Origin: Rothia koreensis
GTDB taxonomy: Bacteria > Actinomycetota > Actinomycetes > Actinomycetales > Micrococcaceae
DNA: 64,000 nucleotides
Assembly: GCF_004136575.1 (NCBI RefSeq)
Contig: NZ_NOIQ01000004.1
Coordinates: 1 to 64,000 of the forward strand
Reading direction: 5' to 3'
Below, piece by piece: positions 36,016-47,594 of the stretch. Within the stretch, counting starts at the first letter, position 1, and each line of letters starts with the position of its first letter. A program made the position numbers and the translations under genes. The notes beneath the pieces are model-generated. The model worked only from the letters and a program-made list of their open reading frames with translations. It was not told the origin of the DNA and ran no database searches.

Positions 36016-38040
36016 CTATTGGTGCGCAGAAGCGGCACCCCGACTCTCCCGGAAGATCCCGGCCGCCTGGGCGTACCAGTCCAGGACCGTCGCGTCCTCC
36101 GCACTGGCCCGGTTCAAGGTTCCCGGATCCGCCCCCTGAAAGAGTCTCTTGACCGGGATCTCCATGAGTTTCCCGGTGCGGGTACGGGGAACCGCGGGGG
36201 CCTCGATGAATTCGTCCGGGACGTAGCGGGGCGAGATCCGGGTCCGGATCGTATGCACGATCTCGGCCTTGAGCTCGTCCGTGAGCCGTTGTCCGGGCTG
36301 GGGAACCACGAACAACGGCATGTAGTAGTCGCCCCCGGCGAGTTCGGCGCCGATCACCATGGACGCGGCGACGCCGTCGACCTGGTCGACGATGTCCGTG
36401 ATGTCGGCGGAGCCCATGCGTATTCCTCCACGGTTGATCGTGGAATCGGAACGACCGTGGATGACCATCCGGCCGTCGCGGCGCTGGGTCGTCCAGTCGC
36501 CCTGGCGCCAGGTTCCGGGGAAGAGATCGAAGTAGGCATCGTGGTACCGGCTGCCGTCGTCGTCGTTCCAGAAGAAAACGGGCATGCTCGGCATGGGCAC
36601 CGTCATCACGAGTTCACCAACCTCGTCCCAGACGCGCCGCCCCTCAGAATTCCAGGACTGCGCGTCGACCCCGAGGTACGGGCCCATGATCTCACCCTTG
36701 TAGACGTCCATGTACGGGTTGCTGCCGACGAAGGCCGTGGTGACGTCGGTACCGCCGGAGTCCGAGCCCAGCCGGACGTCCGGGCTGATGGCGTCGTAGA
36801 CCCAATCCCAGGCGGGATCGGGAAGGGGCGATCCGGTCACCAGGATGCCGTTCAGGGCCGAGAAGTCGTAGGTCGTGTTGGGGTGGAGGCCCGCGCGCTG
36901 GGCCATGCTGAGGATTCCGGCGCCTGTGCCGAAGAAGGTGACTTTGTTGCGCGCGACGAGTTCCAGGGATTTGTCCGGTCCGTTGTACGCGGGCGACCCG
37001 TCATAGACCAGGATCGTACTGCCGACCAGCAGGTTCCCCATGTGCATGTTCCACATCATCCAGGTCGTCGCGACGGCGATGTAGACGATGTCCTCCTCGC
37101 CGACCCCGGCGTGGAGTCCCAGGGACTTCACGAATTCGAGGGTGACGCCGCCGTGGGAATGAACGATGCCCTTGGGCTTGCCGGTGGTCCCGGACGAGTA
37201 GAGGATCCAGAGGGGATGGCCGAAGTGGACCTGCTCGTACCGTGGTTCTGCCGGGACCGCGACGATGTCCGAGAACAGAGTGACGTCCGCGGGGATGCTG
37301 CCGACCTCGGACGGGTCGCACTGGTCGACCATGATCACGTGTTCGACCGTCGGCAGGTGCTCGCGCAGTGGCTGCACCGTCTCGGTCATGTCGCGCAGGG
37401 TCCCGTTGTAGGTGTAGCCGTCCACGGTGAAGAGGACCTTCGGTTCAATCTGGGCAAATCGGTCCGCGACGGCGGGCGGCCCGAAGTCGGTATTGACCAC
37501 CGACCAGATCGCACCGACCGAGGCCGTCGCCATGAGTGCGACGACGGTCTCCGGAATGTTGGGCAGGACGGCGGCGACGCGGTCGCCGGGCTCGACGCCC
37601 AGGTCACGGAGCTTTTTCGCGAGCGAGGCGACCTGCGCCTCGAGGTCCGCCCACGTGGTCTCGGTGCGTTCCGCGGTTTCGTGGTCGCCGATGATGGCGA
37701 CGTCGTTCGGCCGCGTCTTCGCCGCACGGAGGGAATTCTCGGCGTAGTTCAGGCAAGCCCCGGGGAACCATTTCGCGCCCGGCATCTCCCGAGTCGTCAG
37801 GACCTGGCCCGACGTCTTCGAGGCCACGATGCCGAACCACTCCCAGACCTCCTTCCAAAAGTCTTCGAGGTTCTCGATCGACCAGGCGTGGAGGGAACCA
37901 TAGTCAGGAAGGACGACGTCGTACTTCTGCTCGATGCGGCGAGCAAACGCGTACATCCGGGACTGTTCGATCGATTCCCGAGTGGGGCGCCAGAGGAGCT
38001 TTCTCTGACCCGGCTCCTGCGGTTCCTGGCTCTGGGACAT
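36016..38040 (-). CDS. Acetoacetate-CoA ligase
   Basis: A 674-residue ANL-superfamily acyl-CoA synthetase matching acetoacetyl-CoA synthetases. Landmarks are the AMP-binding loop LYSSGTTGKPKGIVHSHGG (near 275), the DSGGTDV block (near 425) and the C-terminal hinge/lysine region RTGKLMEIPVKRL (near 640). It activates acetoacetate, and would feed acetyl units into central metabolism. GAGG precedes the ATG. The preceding NgoMIV-free region and the catabolic cluster are close, but a link is only suggested by position. Confidence 0.9.
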   Translation of the reverse strand: MSQSQEPQEPGQRKLLWRPTRESIEQSRMYAFARRIEQKYDVVLPDYGSLHAWSIENLEDFWKEVWEWFGIVASKTSGQVLTTREMPGAKWFPGACLNYAENSLRAAKTRPNDVAIIGDHETAERTETTWADLEAQVASLAKKLRDLGVEPGDRVAAVLPNIPETVVALMATASVGAIWSVVNTDFGPPAVADRFAQIEPKVLFTVDGYTYNGTLRDMTETVQPLREHLPTVEHVIMVDQCDPSEVGSIPADVTLFSDIVAVPAEPRYEQVHFGHPLWILYSSGTTGKPKGIVHSHGGVTLEFVKSLGLHAGVGEEDIVYIAVATTWMMWNMHMGNLLVGSTILVYDGSPAYNGPDKSLELVARNKVTFFGTGAGILSMAQRAGLHPNTTYDFSALNGILVTGSPLPDPAWDWVYDAISPDVRLGSDSGGTDVTTAFVGSNPYMDVYKGEIMGPYLGVDAQSWNSEGRRVWDEVGELVMTVPMPSMPVFFWNDDDGSRYHDAYFDLFPGTWRQGDWTTQRRDGRMVIHGRSDSTINRGGIRMGSADITDIVDQVDGVAASMVIGAELAGGDYYMPLFVVPQPGQRLTDELKAEIVHTIRTRISPRYVPDEFIEAPAVPRTRTGKLMEIPVKRLFQGADPGTLNRASAEDATVLDWYAQAAGIFRESRGAASAHQ

Positions 38041-38348
38041 CGGTGACCTCGTTTTCCTGGACTGTCGATCGGACTGGGCGCGTCTATGGTGACCCAGCTT
38101 ACTTTTCTTTCAGCGTGGGTGGGAATCTGCAAGTCACCGCAGAGCAACACGTCGGCGGCCAACTCTGACGACGCAAGCCCTGTGAGAAGCTCTACAGGAA
38201 TCATCAGCCGCCTGACGGCCCAACCGGGTCGGCAAGACCGCAGATCACCACCTTCCCGGATAGTAGAATCCGCATCCCGACTTCGACCGAACCCGGACAG
38301 GCCCGAAAACCGAGTTCGACACCAGTCGGGCCAGAACAGGAGGAAAGG
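38041..38348. other. Intergenic region before the defence island
   Basis: No convincing gene. It should contain the promoter of the acetoacetate-CoA ligase on the minus strand and the promoter of the vsr side on the plus strand; TAGAAT at about 38266 is a possible -10. It ends in AGGAGGAAAGG (38338-38348), an excellent ribosome site for a small frame starting at 38349. Confidence 0.4.
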
Positions 38349-38498
38349 ATGCAGAGTGTCGGATGCCCCTCTCCCCGAATGAACCAATCCGCTCCAGCGA
38401 GCGCTATCGCTCCGGAACCGACGTGTCAGCAGCATTCTGGCTCATGCACAAACCCAAGCAGCAGGAGGAGGACCCGTGGATTCTCGCCGGTCGAGTAG
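38349..38498 (+). CDS. Possible 49-residue leader/small protein upstream of vsr
   Basis: An ATG five bases after AGGAGG opens a 49-codon frame rich in Ser, Pro, Arg and Cys that ends inside vsr (22-base overlap). No homologue is recognised. It could be a translational-coupling leader for vsr, or the strong ribosome site may be a coincidence. Another frame of 68 codons starts at 38363. Confidence 0.3.
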   Translation: MQSVGCPSPRMNQSAPASAIAPEPTCQQHSGSCTNPSSRRRTRGFSPVE

Positions 38499-38922
38499 CC
38501 CACCGACCGATGCCCGGACATCAGCCAGGATGGCGTCCCAGAGGAATCGAGACACGATCCCGGAGCTGATGTTACGGACAGAGCTCCGATCCCGCGGGCT
38601 CGGTTACAGGATCAATGCGCGCCTGCCGAATATTCCACGTCGGACTTGTGACGTGGCGTTTGTAGGAGCTCGTGTTGCGGTCTTCATTGACGGGTGCTTC
38701 TGGCACTCCTGCCCTCTTCACGCCGTGCCCCCGAAGCAGAACGCAGCTTGGTGGTCCGAGAAGCTGGAACGGAACATCCGGCGGGACCGCGATACTGAAC
38801 GACGCCTGGAGGAGAATGACTGGAGAGTTCTTCGGTTCTGGGAACATGAGGACATGGCGCTCGCGGCGGACGTGGTGGAGTCCGTGGTTCGCTTTCGGAG
38901 ATCCAGGGCCAAGACCCGCTAA
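38476..38922 (+). CDS. vsr: Very short patch repair endonuclease (Vsr)
   Basis: 148 residues of the Vsr fold (PD-(D/E)XK-like). The metal/active-site Asp is in TCDVAFVGARVAVFIDGC and the zinc/catalytic block FWHSCPLH is near 75-82; WWSEKLERNIRRD near 92 is also conserved. Vsr nicks T:G mismatches arising by deamination of 5-methylcytosine and normally accompanies a Dcm-type methyltransferase, here 65 bases downstream. A strong AGGAGGAGG precedes the GTG start. Confidence 0.93.
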   Translation: MDSRRSSSPPTDARTSARMASQRNRDTIPELMLRTELRSRGLGYRINARLPNIPRRTCDVAFVGARVAVFIDGCFWHSCPLHAVPPKQNAAWWSEKLERNIRRDRDTERRLEENDWRVLRFWEHEDMALAADVVESVVRFRRSRAKTR

Positions 38923-38975
38923 GTGCCCCCCATCCCCATAGGTATGACATGGCCGGATAAGTGTGCAGAAGCTGC

Positions 38976-38981
38976 TACACT
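38976..38981 (+). promoter_or_regulatory. Candidate -10 box, leaderless methyltransferase transcript
   Basis: TACACT ends six bases before the GTG at 38988 and no ribosome site is present. Confidence 0.45.
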
Positions 38982-38987
38982 GCATCA

Positions 38988-40121
38988 GTGGCCAACGACT
39001 TCTCCCTGGGTGAACTCTTCTGCGGTCCCGGCGGCATAGCTCTCGGGGCACAAGCTGCTGCAGTAGAAGGGTCAGATATCCGTATTCGGCATCAGTGGGC
39101 CACCGATTACGACGCCGACACTTGCAAGACGTACCGAAACAATATTTGTCCTCATAATCCTCAGAGCGTCATCGAGGCGGACATTCGAGACCTTGAATTG
39201 CCACGCCTCCGCGACCTGGGAAGCATCGATGGTCTGGCATTCGGGTTTCCGTGCAATGACTTCAGCATGGTCGGCGAGCGTCTGGGGCTGAAAGGCAAAT
39301 ATGGCCCCCTGTACACCTACGGCGTCGACGCATTGAACGAGTTTCGGCCTCGATGGTTTGTGGCGGAAAATGTTGGTGGACTGAGACAAGCGAACGAGGC
39401 CAAAGCATTCACAAAAATCCTTCACGATTTGGAGGACACCGGATACACGCTGACACCTCACCTTTACAAGTTTGAGGAATATGGTGTACCCCAGACAAGA
39501 CATCGTATTATTATAGTCGGGATACGGAATGATGAAAGCCTGAAATTCAAAGTGCCTGCACCAGCAGACGCACCGGTCAAGACAGCATCCGAAGCCATTT
39601 CCGGCATACCAAGCTGGGCTACGAATCACGAACACACCCGGCAACATCCCCGAGTAGTCGGCCGGCTGAAGCTCATAGATCCGGGCGAGAATGCATTCAA
39701 CGCCAAACGCCTGAACAGACCCGAGAACAAACAATTTCAGCTGAACGTCAAAGGGGCCCATCTGTCACAGATATACAAGCGCTTGCACCCGGATAAGCCG
39801 GCTTACACAGTCACAGGGTCAGGCGGGGGCGGCACTCACATGTATCACTGGAGCGAACCGAGAGCGCTGACCAACCGGGAAAGGGCCAGGCTTCAGACCT
39901 TTCCAGACACATTCAGGTTCGAAGGAAGCCGCGAATCCGTACGCAAACAAATAGGGATGGCAGTACCCCCGGACGGCGTGGAAACCATATTTCGTGCCAT
40001 AATTCGCACATTTGAAGGGATGGACTACGCTCACGTCGATCCAAACATAGAAGTGCCTAGCCGCACCGATTTAGTGAACCCCGAATTATCTCTTGAAGGG
40101 CTCGTTCGGAAAGAGAATTGA
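38988..40121 (+). CDS. DNA (cytosine-5)-methyltransferase
   Basis: A 377-residue C5 methyltransferase with all key motifs in order: I (LFCGPGGIALG, near 10-20), IV with catalytic Cys89 (FGFPCNDFS), VI (ENVGG, 127-131), VIII (QTRHRIIIVG), IX-X (LTNRERARLQTFPDTF and IGMAVPP). The variable target-recognition region lies between VIII and IX, about 190-300, and does not reveal the target. GTG at 38988 is preferred by its position after a TACACT box. Local GC content is clearly lower than in neighbouring housekeeping genes. Its 3' end overlaps the convergent DUF6339-like gene by 65 bases. Confidence 0.93.
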   Translation: MANDFSLGELFCGPGGIALGAQAAAVEGSDIRIRHQWATDYDADTCKTYRNNICPHNPQSVIEADIRDLELPRLRDLGSIDGLAFGFPCNDFSMVGERLGLKGKYGPLYTYGVDALNEFRPRWFVAENVGGLRQANEAKAFTKILHDLEDTGYTLTPHLYKFEEYGVPQTRHRIIIVGIRNDESLKFKVPAPADAPVKTASEAISGIPSWATNHEHTRQHPRVVGRLKLIDPGENAFNAKRLNRPENKQFQLNVKGAHLSQIYKRLHPDKPAYTVTGSGGGGTHMYHWSEPRALTNRERARLQTFPDTFRFEGSRESVRKQIGMAVPPDGVETIFRAIIRTFEGMDYAHVDPNIEVPSRTDLVNPELSLEGLVRKEN

Positions 40122-40788
40122 TATCAGTAACACGCATCTCGTACTGAATAGCCTTGAGTCCGTTTCGCACTCTCGTTCGACGGTTTCCGTCTTTTGGTAT
40201 ATTCGCTATTTCTCTTGCGATGGCGCGAGTCAGCCTGTGATCCATGGACAGATTGCGGTCTATCAGACCCACAAGCTCGTCCTCGTACAGCTCCATGTCC
40301 GGATCGCGGATGACGTCTCCGAGAACGAGAGCTCGCAAATACGCTCTGTAGAATACGTTGCGCCTACCTGCCAGGAAGCGTTCGCTCTGGAGACCGCCCT
40401 CACCTCCGGACAGCGGAAACCTGTTGACGGCCAAATCCGGCATGACGATAAGAGACAGGAACGGCCAGACATCATAGTCTGCTGCGTTGGCCGGCCCATC
40501 AGCCTCGAACCACCGCAACAGCACCAACCCCGCCCCCACGTCGAATTCCCTGCGAGCTCTATGGTCAGCACAAGTCTGGTCGCCCACTTCATCGATCATG
40601 GCATGCCGCAAATCGACCATATGGGATTCGCTGACTGGCGCGCCTCCCGTCGCCGGCCAATCCAACTTCGGATGGAAATTGGATGTCAGCACCGGTCGCA
40701 AGTTCTTGCCCTCCTGTGCAGCTCGCTCGAGTCGCGCCAATAGTCGCTTTGCATCGTGAGGGAGTAACCGCGGGTAAAGATAAGACAT
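40057..40788 (-). CDS. DUF6339-like protein of the MORC-type restriction island
   Basis: 243 residues without signal peptide or membrane segments. It has an N-terminal helical part and a central WPFLSLIVMPDLAVNRFPLS hydrophobic block; no nuclease or ATPase motif is visible. The best assignment is the uncharacterised DUF6339 family, which I associate with this type of cluster; this is from memory and not certain. It starts just two bases after the stop of the upstream gene, completing a five-gene coupled operon, and its stop lies inside the 3' end of the methyltransferase gene on the opposite strand. Confidence 0.6.
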   Translation of the reverse strand: MSYLYPRLLPHDAKRLLARLERAAQEGKNLRPVLTSNFHPKLDWPATGGAPVSESHMVDLRHAMIDEVGDQTCADHRARREFDVGAGLVLLRWFEADGPANAADYDVWPFLSLIVMPDLAVNRFPLSGGEGGLQSERFLAGRRNVFYRAYLRALVLGDVIRDPDMELYEDELVGLIDRNLSMDHRLTRAIAREIANIPKDGNRRTRVRNGLKAIQYEMRVTDINSLSERALQEIIRGSLNRCG

Positions 40789-40790
40789 GA

Positions 40791-41690
40791 TTATCCGTCC
40801 TGAAAAAGCTTGAAGGTCTCCCTCAGCCGAAATGTCAACGACATGGGGTCTTCCAATGCGGTTTCAAGTGCTTGGTTCAATGGTAGCCCCATCTTCTCGG
40901 CACCTGCACGTCCCAGCGCTGCCAGCGATTTTGCATCCGACTCGGCCAAAGCCTCCATATCCGCTCCACCGGAAGTGCGAGACCAAGCGGCCAACTTGTG
41001 CAGTGCAGTGGAATAGATGTCCGCTTCAATCTGCTCGTAGAGGTAACCGGGAGCTTTGTCATCCAGGATTTTTTTGTAAATTTCAAGGTCAGTATTTACG
41101 TATGTCCTGATGCAACCGTGCAAGTTCCAGTCGGGTTCGGCATCATCGACAACCTCTATCACCCATGGGACCTGTGGCCGACCCGTCCGGCTGAAGGACA
41201 CAGCGGATGTCGGGAACGCATTTTGGGATGAGTCGAGTGCTATTGTGCGTTGCCCTTTGAGCTCCCATAGTTTCGCGCCGTAATGAAGTGGCGGGTCGAC
41301 TCCGTAGACAGGGTAGCCGGTCCGTCCGTTGCCCACGACCCAGAGTTCGTATCGAAGCTCTGCAGCTATTCTGTTCCCGGGAATATTGATCGAAAGGTTG
41401 GCGCTGTGCCGCCCGCTTTTTTCGCAGAAGGTCGCGTTGTTGGTCCACCGCGTTCGGAGGGAAGGACAGTAGACCAGCCCGACGAGAAATAGCGGCTCGT
41501 TCCTGGACGTCATGGACTGAGTCCAGAACCTGTCCTCCAGGTGAGCATCCATCCTGAATTCCAGGTCCAAGCCTGGTTCCCAGGTCTCGGCAAGAGCATT
41601 GAGCTCAATCTCCGGCGCGACCAGAGAGATTGATGAAGATACCGAGCCATATTCCGGTACGGCATAGGGACGGGACTCGACAGCAGGCAC
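40791..41690 (-). CDS. Uncharacterised protein of the MORC-type restriction island
   Basis: About 299 residues, no recognised domain. It is mostly beta-rich in its first 200 residues (many short hydrophobic strands, e.g. ELRYELWVVGNG) and helical near the C terminus. There is no signal peptide, no membrane segment and no visible nuclease motif. The GTG at 41690 shares one base with the TAG stop of the MORC-type ATPase gene (TAGTG), and GGGGGTGGA lies just upstream, so it is translationally coupled. Likely a structural or specificity subunit of the restriction complex; function is inferred only from position. Confidence 0.55.
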   Translation of the reverse strand: MPAVESRPYAVPEYGSVSSSISLVAPEIELNALAETWEPGLDLEFRMDAHLEDRFWTQSMTSRNEPLFLVGLVYCPSLRTRWTNNATFCEKSGRHSANLSINIPGNRIAAELRYELWVVGNGRTGYPVYGVDPPLHYGAKLWELKGQRTIALDSSQNAFPTSAVSFSRTGRPQVPWVIEVVDDAEPDWNLHGCIRTYVNTDLEIYKKILDDKAPGYLYEQIEADIYSTALHKLAAWSRTSGGADMEALAESDAKSLAALGRAGAEKMGLPLNQALETALEDPMSLTFRLRETFKLFQDG

Positions 41691-43615
41691 TATTCCACCC
41701 CCGTGACTAGCAACTCTATCCGCAGAGCTCGCCTGTGAGGGGCGTTGAACAGTACTGACGCTGAGGAGCCCGAGCCGATCCGGCAACCACTCCCATCCGC
41801 AAGGGCCTGAACGTCCTGGCTCCAACGAGCCTGGAGAACGGCAGGACTGAGGAGTTCAGTGACCCCCTGGTCGCCTATGACGCTGACCTGCAAATCAACC
41901 ATGGCTTCCGGCCCTGGGCCCTCGACCCTGAAGCGAACCCGTTGCATTTGGGTTCCGTCGAACGCTGTTCCCTCGAAATTGCATACTTGGTCCGCCACTC
42001 TCCATCTATCCGACCGGACTGGTTTGGGGTCCTTTTTGTCGGTATTTCCGCGCCCCTTGTTGTCCCTCGGAACCTCTACTGGCAAGACTGATCCCAGCCT
42101 TCGTGACAGGCCGGCTGTCCGCTCTGCGTTTCCGGGACCGGAACTTGTATTTTTGTTGCCCAGCCCCAAGTTCTCAGCGATGCGCCGGTTGATCATTTTC
42201 TTCATGGCAGTCACCACCCGCTTGACGTCCGGCCTGCTTCCGGAGGATACCCATGAATCGTGGGCCGGTGGTTCGGAAGCCGCAAAAATCGGATCAAAAT
42301 CAGGAGTACTACGAAAGACTGCTAGCCAGTCCGTCATAGGAACTAGCGAGTCCACGCCCCAATCCTCTGTCGCGACGACCAACTCCGTCGCCCCTCGCAT
42401 CAAAGCGACCCTTCCGAGGTAATTCGACGGCTCAGCAGGGTCCAGATCATCGGTCGACAGTTGCGGCTTCAGCAGAAAATTCCGATGAACGATTGCCAGG
42501 TGACCGAGGACCTCGGAAAGACGAATGATAGGCACGATATCCGTCTTGACCTGACGGGATACTACTGTTGAAGGTTCACTCTGATGTGGTGACGTTTGAC
42601 GAAGGGCGTTGAGAGCCATACCCCAGAGTTCCAATGCCCCTGAGTCAGAATCCACGAGATCTACTTTGGTTCCCCCGACTTCGAGCGAGAGCGTCATCGG
42701 CGCCTCGCTCTTCTCGCCCCCGGGAACCAGCTTTGGCCAGAGGTGGCGTCTAATTGCTCTTCTGGCCTGGGAGGCGAAGGCATCCATGCCGTTCATCGGG
42801 GTATTGGTCTCGCCCGTCGAATCGCTGACCGATGGACCGAGTCTTTCTTCTTCCCCGTCGAATTCGCTTTCAACTTCCGTCGAGCCGATCCTGGGCACAA
42901 GCACAAGAAGCGAGGTTCCTGTTTGCTCATCGCCGAAACCTCGCACGAAGAGCTCATTACCGAGCGCCTCAGCGGCTTCGCCCTGAACAGGCAGGATCTT
43001 CGAGTCTTCGATTCGGCCCCACCAATGCCGGCCAGTGTATTGAACGTCATCGGCCACATAGGACTCGGTGAAGGCTGAAACAATAAACCGATGTTCCAGC
43101 TCCTGGTCCGAGTTCTTGCATCTCGTCCAATAGACGACGACTCCCAGCTCGCTGTAGTTGAAGGCTGCGGTCTTTCCGAATCCGAACGTACCTCCGCCCT
43201 GTCCATCGCTCCGAGGCACGCCCACTTTGAAGATAAGGTCCTCAAAATTCTTGGGGGTTCCGACTGCTACCGGTTCCATGTCCACAGGACCGTCAAGTCC
43301 GACGGTGTTTCTGTCACTGATTTCCAGTATCGGAGCGTCCGGCGACAACAGACTTTCGGCGAAATGAGGCACATGGTCCAGCGGAAGCAATTCCGCCAAC
43401 CGCTGGTTGAGGCCTGGGTCTGGTTGTCTGAGGTTGACCCCATACTCGGGGACCAACCCTTCTATTCGCGCGTCCCAACTGTTCTGAGCAGTCTCTCTGA
43501 TCAGAATTTCCAGAGGCGAAAGCTCGGTCTTGCCCAGAAGACCATCGTTCATGTTTCCGTCCATGTCCCCAGGGGCGAACCGCTTGGGATACCAATCCAG
43601 GCTCCTGGCGCTCAC
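41690..43615 (-). CDS. MORC/MutL-like GHKL ATPase
   Basis: A 641-residue protein with an N-terminal GHKL ATPase: N box RETAQNSWDAR (about 41-51, catalytic Glu41 and Asn45), DRNTVGLDG (about 101-109, the G1 Asp), and the lid GQGGGTFGFGKTAAF (about 138-152). A transducer-like region follows; the C-terminal half is unassigned. Such ATPases are the switch subunit of MORC-type restriction systems. The GTG at 43615 overlaps the nuclease stop by four bases (GTGA); alternative starts lie 5' of it within the nuclease gene. Confidence 0.85.
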   Translation of the reverse strand: MSARSLDWYPKRFAPGDMDGNMNDGLLGKTELSPLEILIRETAQNSWDARIEGLVPEYGVNLRQPDPGLNQRLAELLPLDHVPHFAESLLSPDAPILEISDRNTVGLDGPVDMEPVAVGTPKNFEDLIFKVGVPRSDGQGGGTFGFGKTAAFNYSELGVVVYWTRCKNSDQELEHRFIVSAFTESYVADDVQYTGRHWWGRIEDSKILPVQGEAAEALGNELFVRGFGDEQTGTSLLVLVPRIGSTEVESEFDGEEERLGPSVSDSTGETNTPMNGMDAFASQARRAIRRHLWPKLVPGGEKSEAPMTLSLEVGGTKVDLVDSDSGALELWGMALNALRQTSPHQSEPSTVVSRQVKTDIVPIIRLSEVLGHLAIVHRNFLLKPQLSTDDLDPAEPSNYLGRVALMRGATELVVATEDWGVDSLVPMTDWLAVFRSTPDFDPIFAASEPPAHDSWVSSGSRPDVKRVVTAMKKMINRRIAENLGLGNKNTSSGPGNAERTAGLSRRLGSVLPVEVPRDNKGRGNTDKKDPKPVRSDRWRVADQVCNFEGTAFDGTQMQRVRFRVEGPGPEAMVDLQVSVIGDQGVTELLSPAVLQARWSQDVQALADGSGCRIGSGSSASVLFNAPHRRALRIELLVTGVE

Positions 43616-44589
43616 AGACACTTCAGCACACCCTCTAGTTCTTCGACCGGCAAGATTCCGGTGCAATGGTCCAGACCCAAGGAGTAGGAGAGGTTGTCCA
43701 CGCCGCGGAGCGCATCAGGCTCGAGGCGGGAAGGCCTGATCCCGGGGAAATCTCCACCGATTTCGAACAGCCTGATTTCTTCCACGACGAACCTGTAGCT
43801 CAGAGCCTCAAGGTTTTCCATCGTCCGATCCAGTTTGCGAAGTACGGTCCCTCGAGAGACCCCCAAATCGGCCAAGGCGTCGACCATTGCTGAGAGGGAT
43901 TCCCCCGATTCGTTCTCATCGACTTTGAGTGCCACCAGGTGCAACCTGTGACCGAGGGGTGGCTCCAGTTGATATGCACCATGGATCCTGATCCTGGGTT
44001 CCCCATATCCGGTATAGGTCTTGACCTCAAGACTGTTGGTTGCGTTGAAATCATGCCGGTAGTTTTCGACACCTCGCCATACGTCCAAAGCCTTCCGCGG
44101 ATCCAATCGTGCGAATTTTCGGAGTATGGTGAGTTCGCCGAACAGACCAATTGCCTCTTGGCGGCTCAACATCTTGCTCCTGGACCGCAAGATCTGGTGC
44201 CAGGAATCAATCACTGTCAGCAGCCCGTCCAGGACGGGCTGTGACGTTCCCCTGACCTCGTCGAGCATCTCAGCCGTCAAGGACAAGAAGGTACGGTTCA
44301 ACCGTGGTTCGTTGCACGAAACCTGCAGATACGTCGCTCTGCCGTTGCCAAGGTCAGAATGATTGACCCATTCGGTCTCCAATATCGATCCGACGCCGAG
44401 TTTGGGTGTAGTCCGTCCCGCGGGAAGCCTGACCCAAAGACGGTAGGTTCCCGACGGTCCCCTTCCGAGACCCACTTCTTCAGCGTCGCCGTCACGCCCG
44501 ATGTAGAAGTACGGAACCTCCGACGCGCGGTGTGGCTCCTCCGAGAGTCTTTCGAAAATGCCCTGGATACGTGCGTAGCTTGAAATCAT
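43612..44589 (-). CDS. PD-(D/E)XK nuclease-family protein (formerly DUF4420)
   Basis: A 325-residue protein with a restriction-endonuclease-like active site: Glu152 (FGELTIL), Asp180 (RHDF), Glu188 and Lys190 (SLEVKT). An N-terminal ~110-residue domain is unassigned. This matches the PD-(D/E)XK-motif family that accompanies Z1 and MORC-type proteins and is the predicted DNA-cleaving subunit. Overlaps both neighbours by four bases. Confidence 0.85.
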   Translation of the reverse strand: MISSYARIQGIFERLSEEPHRASEVPYFYIGRDGDAEEVGLGRGPSGTYRLWVRLPAGRTTPKLGVGSILETEWVNHSDLGNGRATYLQVSCNEPRLNRTFLSLTAEMLDEVRGTSQPVLDGLLTVIDSWHQILRSRSKMLSRQEAIGLFGELTILRKFARLDPRKALDVWRGVENYRHDFNATNSLEVKTYTGYGEPRIRIHGAYQLEPPLGHRLHLVALKVDENESGESLSAMVDALADLGVSRGTVLRKLDRTMENLEALSYRFVVEEIRLFEIGGDFPGIRPSRLEPDALRGVDNLSYSLGLDHCTGILPVEELEGVLKCL

Positions 44590-47291
44590 TCCGCTTCCTC
44601 GAAGTCTCCCTCTCGGTCGACGACAATTTCATCATTATCAGCAAGTTCGTCCGATTCTTCAGCATCGTTCTGAACGATGAGTGCCGATATGTACTCATTC
44701 GGATCTTCTGCACCGGCGTGAGGGAACACCATCCCGAGCCCCACCAAGTCATCCTCGCTGTCCATCGATGTCCGGGCTTTTGAAGAAGGAGCAGCCTTGG
44801 AATCCTTGTCGATGAGATAGACGACGAGGACACCGAGGTCCGGTTCAAACCGGTTCCTGAATTCCTTGACCGCTCCAACATCGTCCTTGTCCAACCGTTC
44901 GAATGCTTCAGCGCATTGGATGTCCAGCTTGTCGTTTTCGTATCGGATTCGTATGTCCGCGGTATAGTCCCCGCTGGACATCAGTGCCCGGATATTCACG
45001 AGATCCGCATTGCTCGGGCGATCGAAACTTGTCTTTTCCGGGGACCACTTTCCGTCCATCAGCCTGGCTCGTCTCGTAGTTCGGACCGAAACGCCCGGCT
45101 TCCATTCGTGTACTCGTCCGTTCTGACTGGATCCCGAAACCAGAACCAGATCCCATTCGGCGCATCTTGCGTACTCACCCAGCCAACGCTCCATGGCCTC
45201 CGGCTGCATCCAAGGATCTGCAGTCCAGAACCCACGCAAGAACTCGACAACGTCCTCATTGCGCAACCTGCGGTACAAGATGTTTCCATTGGTTCCCTTG
45301 AGAAAACTGCCTGCGCTACGCTCAGCCGCCCGGACAACCAGGCCCCGCGCAGCGTCGAGCTGTTGCACGGCCGCATCATGTTCTTTGTTCAGGTAAATGG
45401 TCTGACGCCGCGTGCCTCCGATACCAGCATGCACCAGCGTAGCGTCCGCCATTTTTCCACGAGAGGTGATTTCCAACCGGCCAGGATGGGTAAGAATTTT
45501 TGGAGCGAATTCTCGGGGAGCCAAATTTTCTTTGGCCATCTGGGCGATTTCCGCCCTTATCTGCCTCTCCACACGGGCCAGGTGGCGATAATCGTCAAGC
45601 AGACCGGGTCCGACCCAAACCCGAACGAGGTCCCCATAGTGAGGCCTGAATCCGAACCAGCGCCCCATCTGGAGGAGCGTGTCGTATGCATTGCTCGAAC
45701 GGAGAAAATATGAGACAACCAGACCTTCGAGCGTCAAGCCGCGAGAGAGCGTACCACCACCTATGGCGATGACGCGTTGTGGCTCGTCATCTGGGTAGAC
45801 AAGACGGTCCGTCGAGCGCCCGTTGTCGATCTTTACAGTGATGGAAGGCAGGATATCAAGCACCCGGTCCCAAACTTCACTCCAGGAATAATTCCTTTCA
45901 TCCCCTCTTAGCGCTTTTCCCTTGCCCTCCTGGCTTTCAAATACCGCACGCATGGTCGTTTCGTCAGCGTTTCTGGCAAGTTCTCTAAGGAAATCGTCTA
46001 TTACTTCTTTTTGTTGTTCATGCGCTTGGACCCGGTGGGTGGTATGCAAGAGCATTGACGAGTGGTTAATTTTCCCGGTCCGCAACTCGCGTATTGCTGT
46101 TGCGATCACGAACCACCTAATGGCCTGCCCCAGGGTATCCGTAATCTCCGGATCATAGTTTTCGATATTTCTCCCCCTGGGCACCAACACGGAGGCCTCA
46201 TTGTCGGGTATTCCGATTGACAGATCATGTATGAGTTCGTCGCCTTCTGCCTCATCGGAAACCTCCGAAGTGTCGAAGAACTCGTCTGCCCCCAAATATC
46301 CGACCGGCTTGGGAAGAGAGACTATGAAGTCGTCCGGGTAGAAGTCGTTTTCCTCGGCCGGGCTGATAAGCAAGTTCGCGAAAGGTGTGGCCGTATAGGC
46401 TACATAGCTACCCGTCGGGACCGACTTCCAGATATCACGCAACCGTTGATTGATTGTGGAAATCTGGTCCCGCCCACTTTCTGTATTCGGTGTGGCCTGA
46501 TCCGATTCGTCGTCGATAATGAGAACCGGGTAGCGGGAAAGCTGATCCTTCGGGATACGTTGCAAAAACTTCTCTATGTTCTTCAAACGCTTCTCATGTT
46601 TTTTGACGACCATGACGACTACACCGTTGGCCGTGTTCAGTGAGGTAGCAGTCGCATTGGCCGCAATATCATGGGTTTCGTCCGTTTTCGGGTCCCAGTA
46701 AACGGTCTTCATCGGATCCATGACGGCCAGGTCGAGGTCGTCCTCGAGCCTGGTCTGTGTCTGCGCGCGCAAGTTCGAGTACATGCCGGCAAGGACAATG
46801 ACAATCCTGTATCCCGCGTCGACTGACTTCGCAATCAGGGCCTGGAAGTTGGCCGTTTTGCCGGACTGCACGTAGCCGAGTACCAGCCCTTTGCGCTGGC
46901 TTCCGGGCCGCTTGGGATTGGCCATTCGGTAGATGGTGGCTTCCGTGGTGTCGTCAATGGCCTGCACCGCGGCATCGGGCAATTTCTCAGCAATCTTCTT
47001 CCGGTAATCGGGCCAAGCACCTCGGGTGGTTCGAGCACCCGAATACCAGGTTTCCTCTGCACCTTCCTTCTTGAGCATCTTGCCCATACGCAGGTGCTGC
47101 ATCTGGTCACGCTTCTGGAGTTCGTACTCGCGTCGCCTCTCTTCGAATCCGGGAAACATGGACTCTGCCTGGGCCGTGGCCTGTTGCAACGCAACGTCTC
47201 GGTTGCTCATCTTGCTCAACGCCTGGAAATAGGCCTCGAAAATAGCCATTGCGTCAGGAAATTCTTCCTCAGAGAGTTTCACGTCAGTCAC
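44586..47291 (-). CDS. Z1-domain protein, SF2 helicase-like (restriction system)
   Basis: A 901-residue protein with a P-loop of the Z1/SF2 type, VLGYVQSGKTANFQ (about 137-150), a Walker-B/DEAD-like VLIIDDESD (about 256-264), and Z1-specific blocks such as GGGTLSRGLTLEGLV (near 510) and MGRWFGFRP (near 540). The C terminus is acidic. Z1 proteins are predicted to translocate or remodel DNA in MORC-type restriction-modification systems. GTG start with GAGGTA upstream. First gene of the operon. Confidence 0.88.
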   Translation of the reverse strand: MTDVKLSEEEFPDAMAIFEAYFQALSKMSNRDVALQQATAQAESMFPGFEERRREYELQKRDQMQHLRMGKMLKKEGAEETWYSGARTTRGAWPDYRKKIAEKLPDAAVQAIDDTTEATIYRMANPKRPGSQRKGLVLGYVQSGKTANFQALIAKSVDAGYRIVIVLAGMYSNLRAQTQTRLEDDLDLAVMDPMKTVYWDPKTDETHDIAANATATSLNTANGVVVMVVKKHEKRLKNIEKFLQRIPKDQLSRYPVLIIDDESDQATPNTESGRDQISTINQRLRDIWKSVPTGSYVAYTATPFANLLISPAEENDFYPDDFIVSLPKPVGYLGADEFFDTSEVSDEAEGDELIHDLSIGIPDNEASVLVPRGRNIENYDPEITDTLGQAIRWFVIATAIRELRTGKINHSSMLLHTTHRVQAHEQQKEVIDDFLRELARNADETTMRAVFESQEGKGKALRGDERNYSWSEVWDRVLDILPSITVKIDNGRSTDRLVYPDDEPQRVIAIGGGTLSRGLTLEGLVVSYFLRSSNAYDTLLQMGRWFGFRPHYGDLVRVWVGPGLLDDYRHLARVERQIRAEIAQMAKENLAPREFAPKILTHPGRLEITSRGKMADATLVHAGIGGTRRQTIYLNKEHDAAVQQLDAARGLVVRAAERSAGSFLKGTNGNILYRRLRNEDVVEFLRGFWTADPWMQPEAMERWLGEYARCAEWDLVLVSGSSQNGRVHEWKPGVSVRTTRRARLMDGKWSPEKTSFDRPSNADLVNIRALMSSGDYTADIRIRYENDKLDIQCAEAFERLDKDDVGAVKEFRNRFEPDLGVLVVYLIDKDSKAAPSSKARTSMDSEDDLVGLGMVFPHAGAEDPNEYISALIVQNDAEESDELADNDEIVVDREGDFEEAE

Positions 47292-47594
47292 GTCAGCCGT
47301 ACCTCGATCCAGAGCGAGCCTTTATTATCGTTGCTGACGTCAGCATATAGTTCCAGTCACACAACTACTAACCAGCGGACGGCGACCAGTCGGCGCCGCA
47401 ACCTGACCTGGACTCACGTATTTGTCCAGCTTGGGAGACTCTTCGCGGTTTGCGCCCCTGTGGGAGAGCATCGAGTCGGGACCCCGGCCATACCTCTCTT
47501 CTCACATCCTGAGATTCGGCGTCCCAATCCGCTTAACTCGGCGTATGCTCAAGCGTCAATATTGTAGGCCTGCCCTGAGACGCAAGGAGTCATC
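47292..47594. other. Divergent promoter region, Z1 operon / amino-acid permease
   Basis: No convincing gene. It contains the 12-base palindrome GCTGACGTCAGC (47333-47344) and, closer to the Z1 start, two further TGACGT motifs on the minus strand (47283-47298), plus an AT-rich patch (TTTATTATCG) that may be a promoter. The permease side has AAGGAG seven bases before its ATG. Confidence 0.5.
47333..47344. promoter_or_regulatory. Palindrome GCTGACGTCAGC upstream of the Z1 operon
   Basis: A perfect 12-base palindrome, with the half-site TGACGT repeated twice more between it and the Z1 GTG. Probably a regulator binding site, possibly autoregulatory. No regulator gene is recognised in the island. 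Confidence 0.4.

Follow-up and report, generated by a model that had tools for sequence, protein, structure and literature searches.

A seven-gene island of a predicted DNA-defence kind in Rothia koreensis, with two regular partners of its ATPase

The island and the systems closest to it

A putative defence system named 'Type I' was published in 2022 in Nat Commun, reportedly by Miller et al. In the part of that paper that deals with it, the system has three additional genes, six in all, and is linked to a repair endonuclease (PMC9523054). A third type of MORC/paraMORC operon, for which DNA looping was proposed as the mechanism, appears in the relevant section of Iyer, Abhiman and Aravind 2008 (PMC2292703). 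We report that a 64,000-nucleotide stretch of Rothia koreensis (contig NZ_NOIQ01000004.1, positions 1 to 64,000; the window) carries a real seven-gene bacterial island, predicted to act in DNA defence and belonging to a kind that others have put forward before, that the island is foreign DNA, and that two proteins of unknown function, X299 and a DUF6339 protein, are regular partners of its ATPase. Our literature searches found no experimental study of this predicted kind of system. The features are:

37997..47501, no strand: foreign stretch, edges approximate (flanking genes ~0.36 kb apart in same-genus loci L111 and L112)
38476..38922, plus: Vsr-type very-short-patch repair endonuclease (Pfam Vsr, TIGR00632, conserved residues)
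38961..40121, plus: 5-methylcytosine (m5C) DNA methyltransferase, Dcm type (PF00145, motifs IV and VI)
40057..40788, minus: DUF6339 protein, 243 amino acids (family-level PF19866 and PDC-M33C matches)
40791..41690, minus: X299, 299 amino acids (N-terminal beta-sandwich, helical C-terminal part)
41690..43615, minus: GHKL-motif ATPase, paraMORC-like (conserved motif residues, PDC-M33A match)
43612..44589, minus: DUF4420 PD-(D/E)XK nuclease, distant MzaD relative (PF14390, conserved E-D-ExK)
44586..47291, minus: further gene of the island

The island had been noticed in a preliminary description of the window, and is confirmed here. Its gene kinds fit the third operon type, with which, as far as the section on it goes, it shares a superfamily II (SFII) helicase with the motif DThhQXuRhFG, a nuclease of restriction endonuclease (RE) fold, a GHKL ATPase, DCM and Vsr (PMC2292703). 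In the island the helicase motif (D493-G503) is present, its positions kept in 77-85/85, as is the E-D-ExK of an RE-fold nuclease (E152, D180, E188 and K190, each in 81/81 aligned sequences). The expected PF14390-like nuclease profile matched at E 5.7e-36, and the calls of Vsr and m5C methyltransferase were borne out as well: the Vsr protein matches Pfam Vsr at E 1.6e-14, scores 107.7 bits with TIGR00632 (cut-off 97.85) and has D59, C74, H77 and W93 each kept in 68/68 aligned sequences, and the methyltransferase matches PF00145 at E 2.2e-68 and carries the motif IV Pro-Cys and the motif VI Glu-Asn-Val. The earlier restriction reading is partly supported; its MORC-type label did not stand. The MORC S5 motif GhXhhpXXRhl was found in 0/81 sequences in the region examined and in 1/81 anywhere, so the ATPase lacks this mark of the MORC family proper.

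The island has three more core genes and Vsr, which may match those of 'Type I'. The text on that system leaves its three extra genes unnamed, and we infer that they correspond to the GHKL ATPase, X299 and DUF6339; the domain printed there as DUF4220 is taken here as DUF4420. The portable trio and the dead methyltransferase described below do not appear in its Type I section (PMC9523054). In the part describing CglI/NgoAVII, the nuclease is of the PLD type with a B3 domain, unlike that of the island, and no GHKL, X299 or DUF6339 is described (PMC4267653). For the PADLOC phage-defence candidate PDC-M33 (A/B/C), the window ATPase matches A and the DUF6339 family matches C; no match to B was obtained. 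The island differs from MZA (MzaABCDE). The AIPR gene is part of the MZA name, and across the entire draft genome there were 0 matches to AIPR (PF10592) at an E-value of 0.001; the scores for MzaC (335.1 bits) and MzaD (49.9) lie below the NCBIfam cut-offs of 1500 and 420, and the ATPase, which matches PDC-M33A, matches no Mza model.

The ATPase and its two partners

GHKL ATP-binding motifs are ExxxN, DxGxG, GxxGxG and a Thr. The ATPase residues E41, N45, D101, G106, G142, G145, G147 and T234, each in 80-81/81 aligned sequences, follow this order, the second motif being one residue longer than usual. PDC-M33A was matched by 20/20 family members scanned. The GHKL profile check suggested earlier gave no match to a curated HATPase profile in 20 members, and no PDB match was found for the ATPase. 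An HtpG-like protein aligns collinearly with it (23.7 vs <=18.8 in 30 shuffles), but with a probability of only 2.4%; a MutL-like protein scored 19.4, below its shuffles (24.0), and a joint GHKL motif pattern devised here matched none of the three proteins, the window ATPase among them.

The two partner genes, whose absence from other copies of the cluster would have spoken against the preliminary description, recur beside the ATPase, and the trio also occurs at L119, L120, L121 and L123, where Vsr was not found in the stretch fetched. No catalytic signature was seen in X299. The DUF6339 protein is modelled as all-helical (AlphaFold mean predicted local distance difference test score 93.2), and D83, W108, R123 and R178 are each present in 82/82 aligned sequences. 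Its family assignment holds for the family, 42/52 aligned members matching PF19866 and 29/50 the best of four PDC-M33C models, and not for the window protein on its own, which matches neither. Should the trio prove to be an accessory shared by many restriction systems, the way it works would account for what the bacterial paraMORC-like proteins do and would bear on DNA handling by eukaryotic MORCs.

At L099 (11034-14648, minus) the ATPase frame has, by eye, a sigma-70-like N-terminal stretch; after it come a frame with weak likeness to X299 and then DUF6339, with Vsr and an m5C methyltransferase nearby. Directly before the ATPase gene of four PDC-M33-type clusters lies a charged protein of 75-77 amino acids, alike by eye (L121:4861-5091, L122:4877-5110, L124:3870-4097 and L125:3882-4112). 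On Listeria plasmids DUF6339 was matched in two pieces and carries two annotations in many of these related records, which looks like a broken gene.

Methyltransferases and alternative explanations

DUF6339 and an m5C-methyltransferase-like domain form one reading frame of 572-647 amino acids in 29/77 clusters (spanning L018 to L071), whose record titles all name Streptomyces or Streptacidiphilus. Pro-Cys of motif IV is missing from 29/29 fused domains and kept in 29/29 separate methyltransferases of the same loci and in 8/8 references; motifs I and VI are largely retained, and the last Arg of motif VIII is lost in the common forms. The nearest unfused relative is a free-standing domain in Nocardia (L044:8449-9438, minus; 43-51% identity with five queries), by eye also without the motif IV Cys, which the neighbouring methyltransferase has. 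Judged from these sequences, the dead domain may be a DNA-binding module turned reader, and, if so, would allow a direct and testable approach to self versus foreign recognition of DNA by such complexes.

Cutting might, as in MZA, be independent of the methyltransferase, which together with Vsr would be a frequent neighbour with its own job. We consider this quite unlikely given the m5C methyltransferase within 3 kb of the core in 72/77 clusters, the lack of an AIPR match in this genome and the fused frames. That the trio is a MutL-like repair or maintenance module, aiding Vsr or limiting damage at incompletely methylated sites and dispensable for restriction, is unlikely. In favour of it, the trio adjoins type II enzymes that should cut alone, Vsr lies within 3 kb in 64/77 clusters and Iyer et al., in the section concerned, raise a use in repair for some such ATPases (PMC2292703); against it, trios occur where Vsr was not found in the stretch fetched, and 74/77 clusters of this clade have coupled ATPase and nuclease frames. 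Sites that are methylated or hemimethylated could be read by a fused domain lacking Pro-Cys, as a type IV-like system attacking modified foreign DNA would, with the methyltransferase as decoy or regulator; this is highly improbable, because a system reading the same mark would not tolerate the m5C methyltransferase that is so often near the core and whose motif IV is intact in all fused loci.

The reading of the island as a defence system of the proposed kind is held with moderate confidence, and several observations weigh against it. Assignment of the ATPase to GHKL draws on motifs, and the middle gene of the trio was assigned by position only at L100 and L126. Five of the 77 clusters have no m5C methyltransferase within 3 kb (other methyltransferase types were not sought): at L013 it lies ~3.4 kb away, the L078 cluster fills its contig, L070 has <2 kb on one side, and at L061 and L073 none was detected in the flank by this profile. 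By the profiles used, two rhizobial plasmid clusters (L004 and L006) have no DUF4420, m5C methyltransferase or Vsr, and L096 has no DUF4420; therefore neither nuclease nor methyltransferase looks obligatory. Nor was any core protein seen to vary with methyltransferase type, so that none stands out as the recognition subunit.

Foreign origin of the island

The right-hand flank was searched in 39 genomes, its own included, of which 24 belong to the same genus; flank genes were labelled by eye. A permease-like gene is present in 4/24 same-genus genomes at 80-82% DNA identity, and the loci of all four (L111 to L114) were compared. The acetoacetyl-CoA synthetase-like gene was not seen in the fetched stretches of L113 and L114, and no clear target duplication was found. 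In G405 and G424 (L111 and L112) the synthetase-like gene adjoins the permease-like gene with a gap of ~0.36 kb, and the island is regarded as foreign because the same gap is ~9.5 kb in the window.
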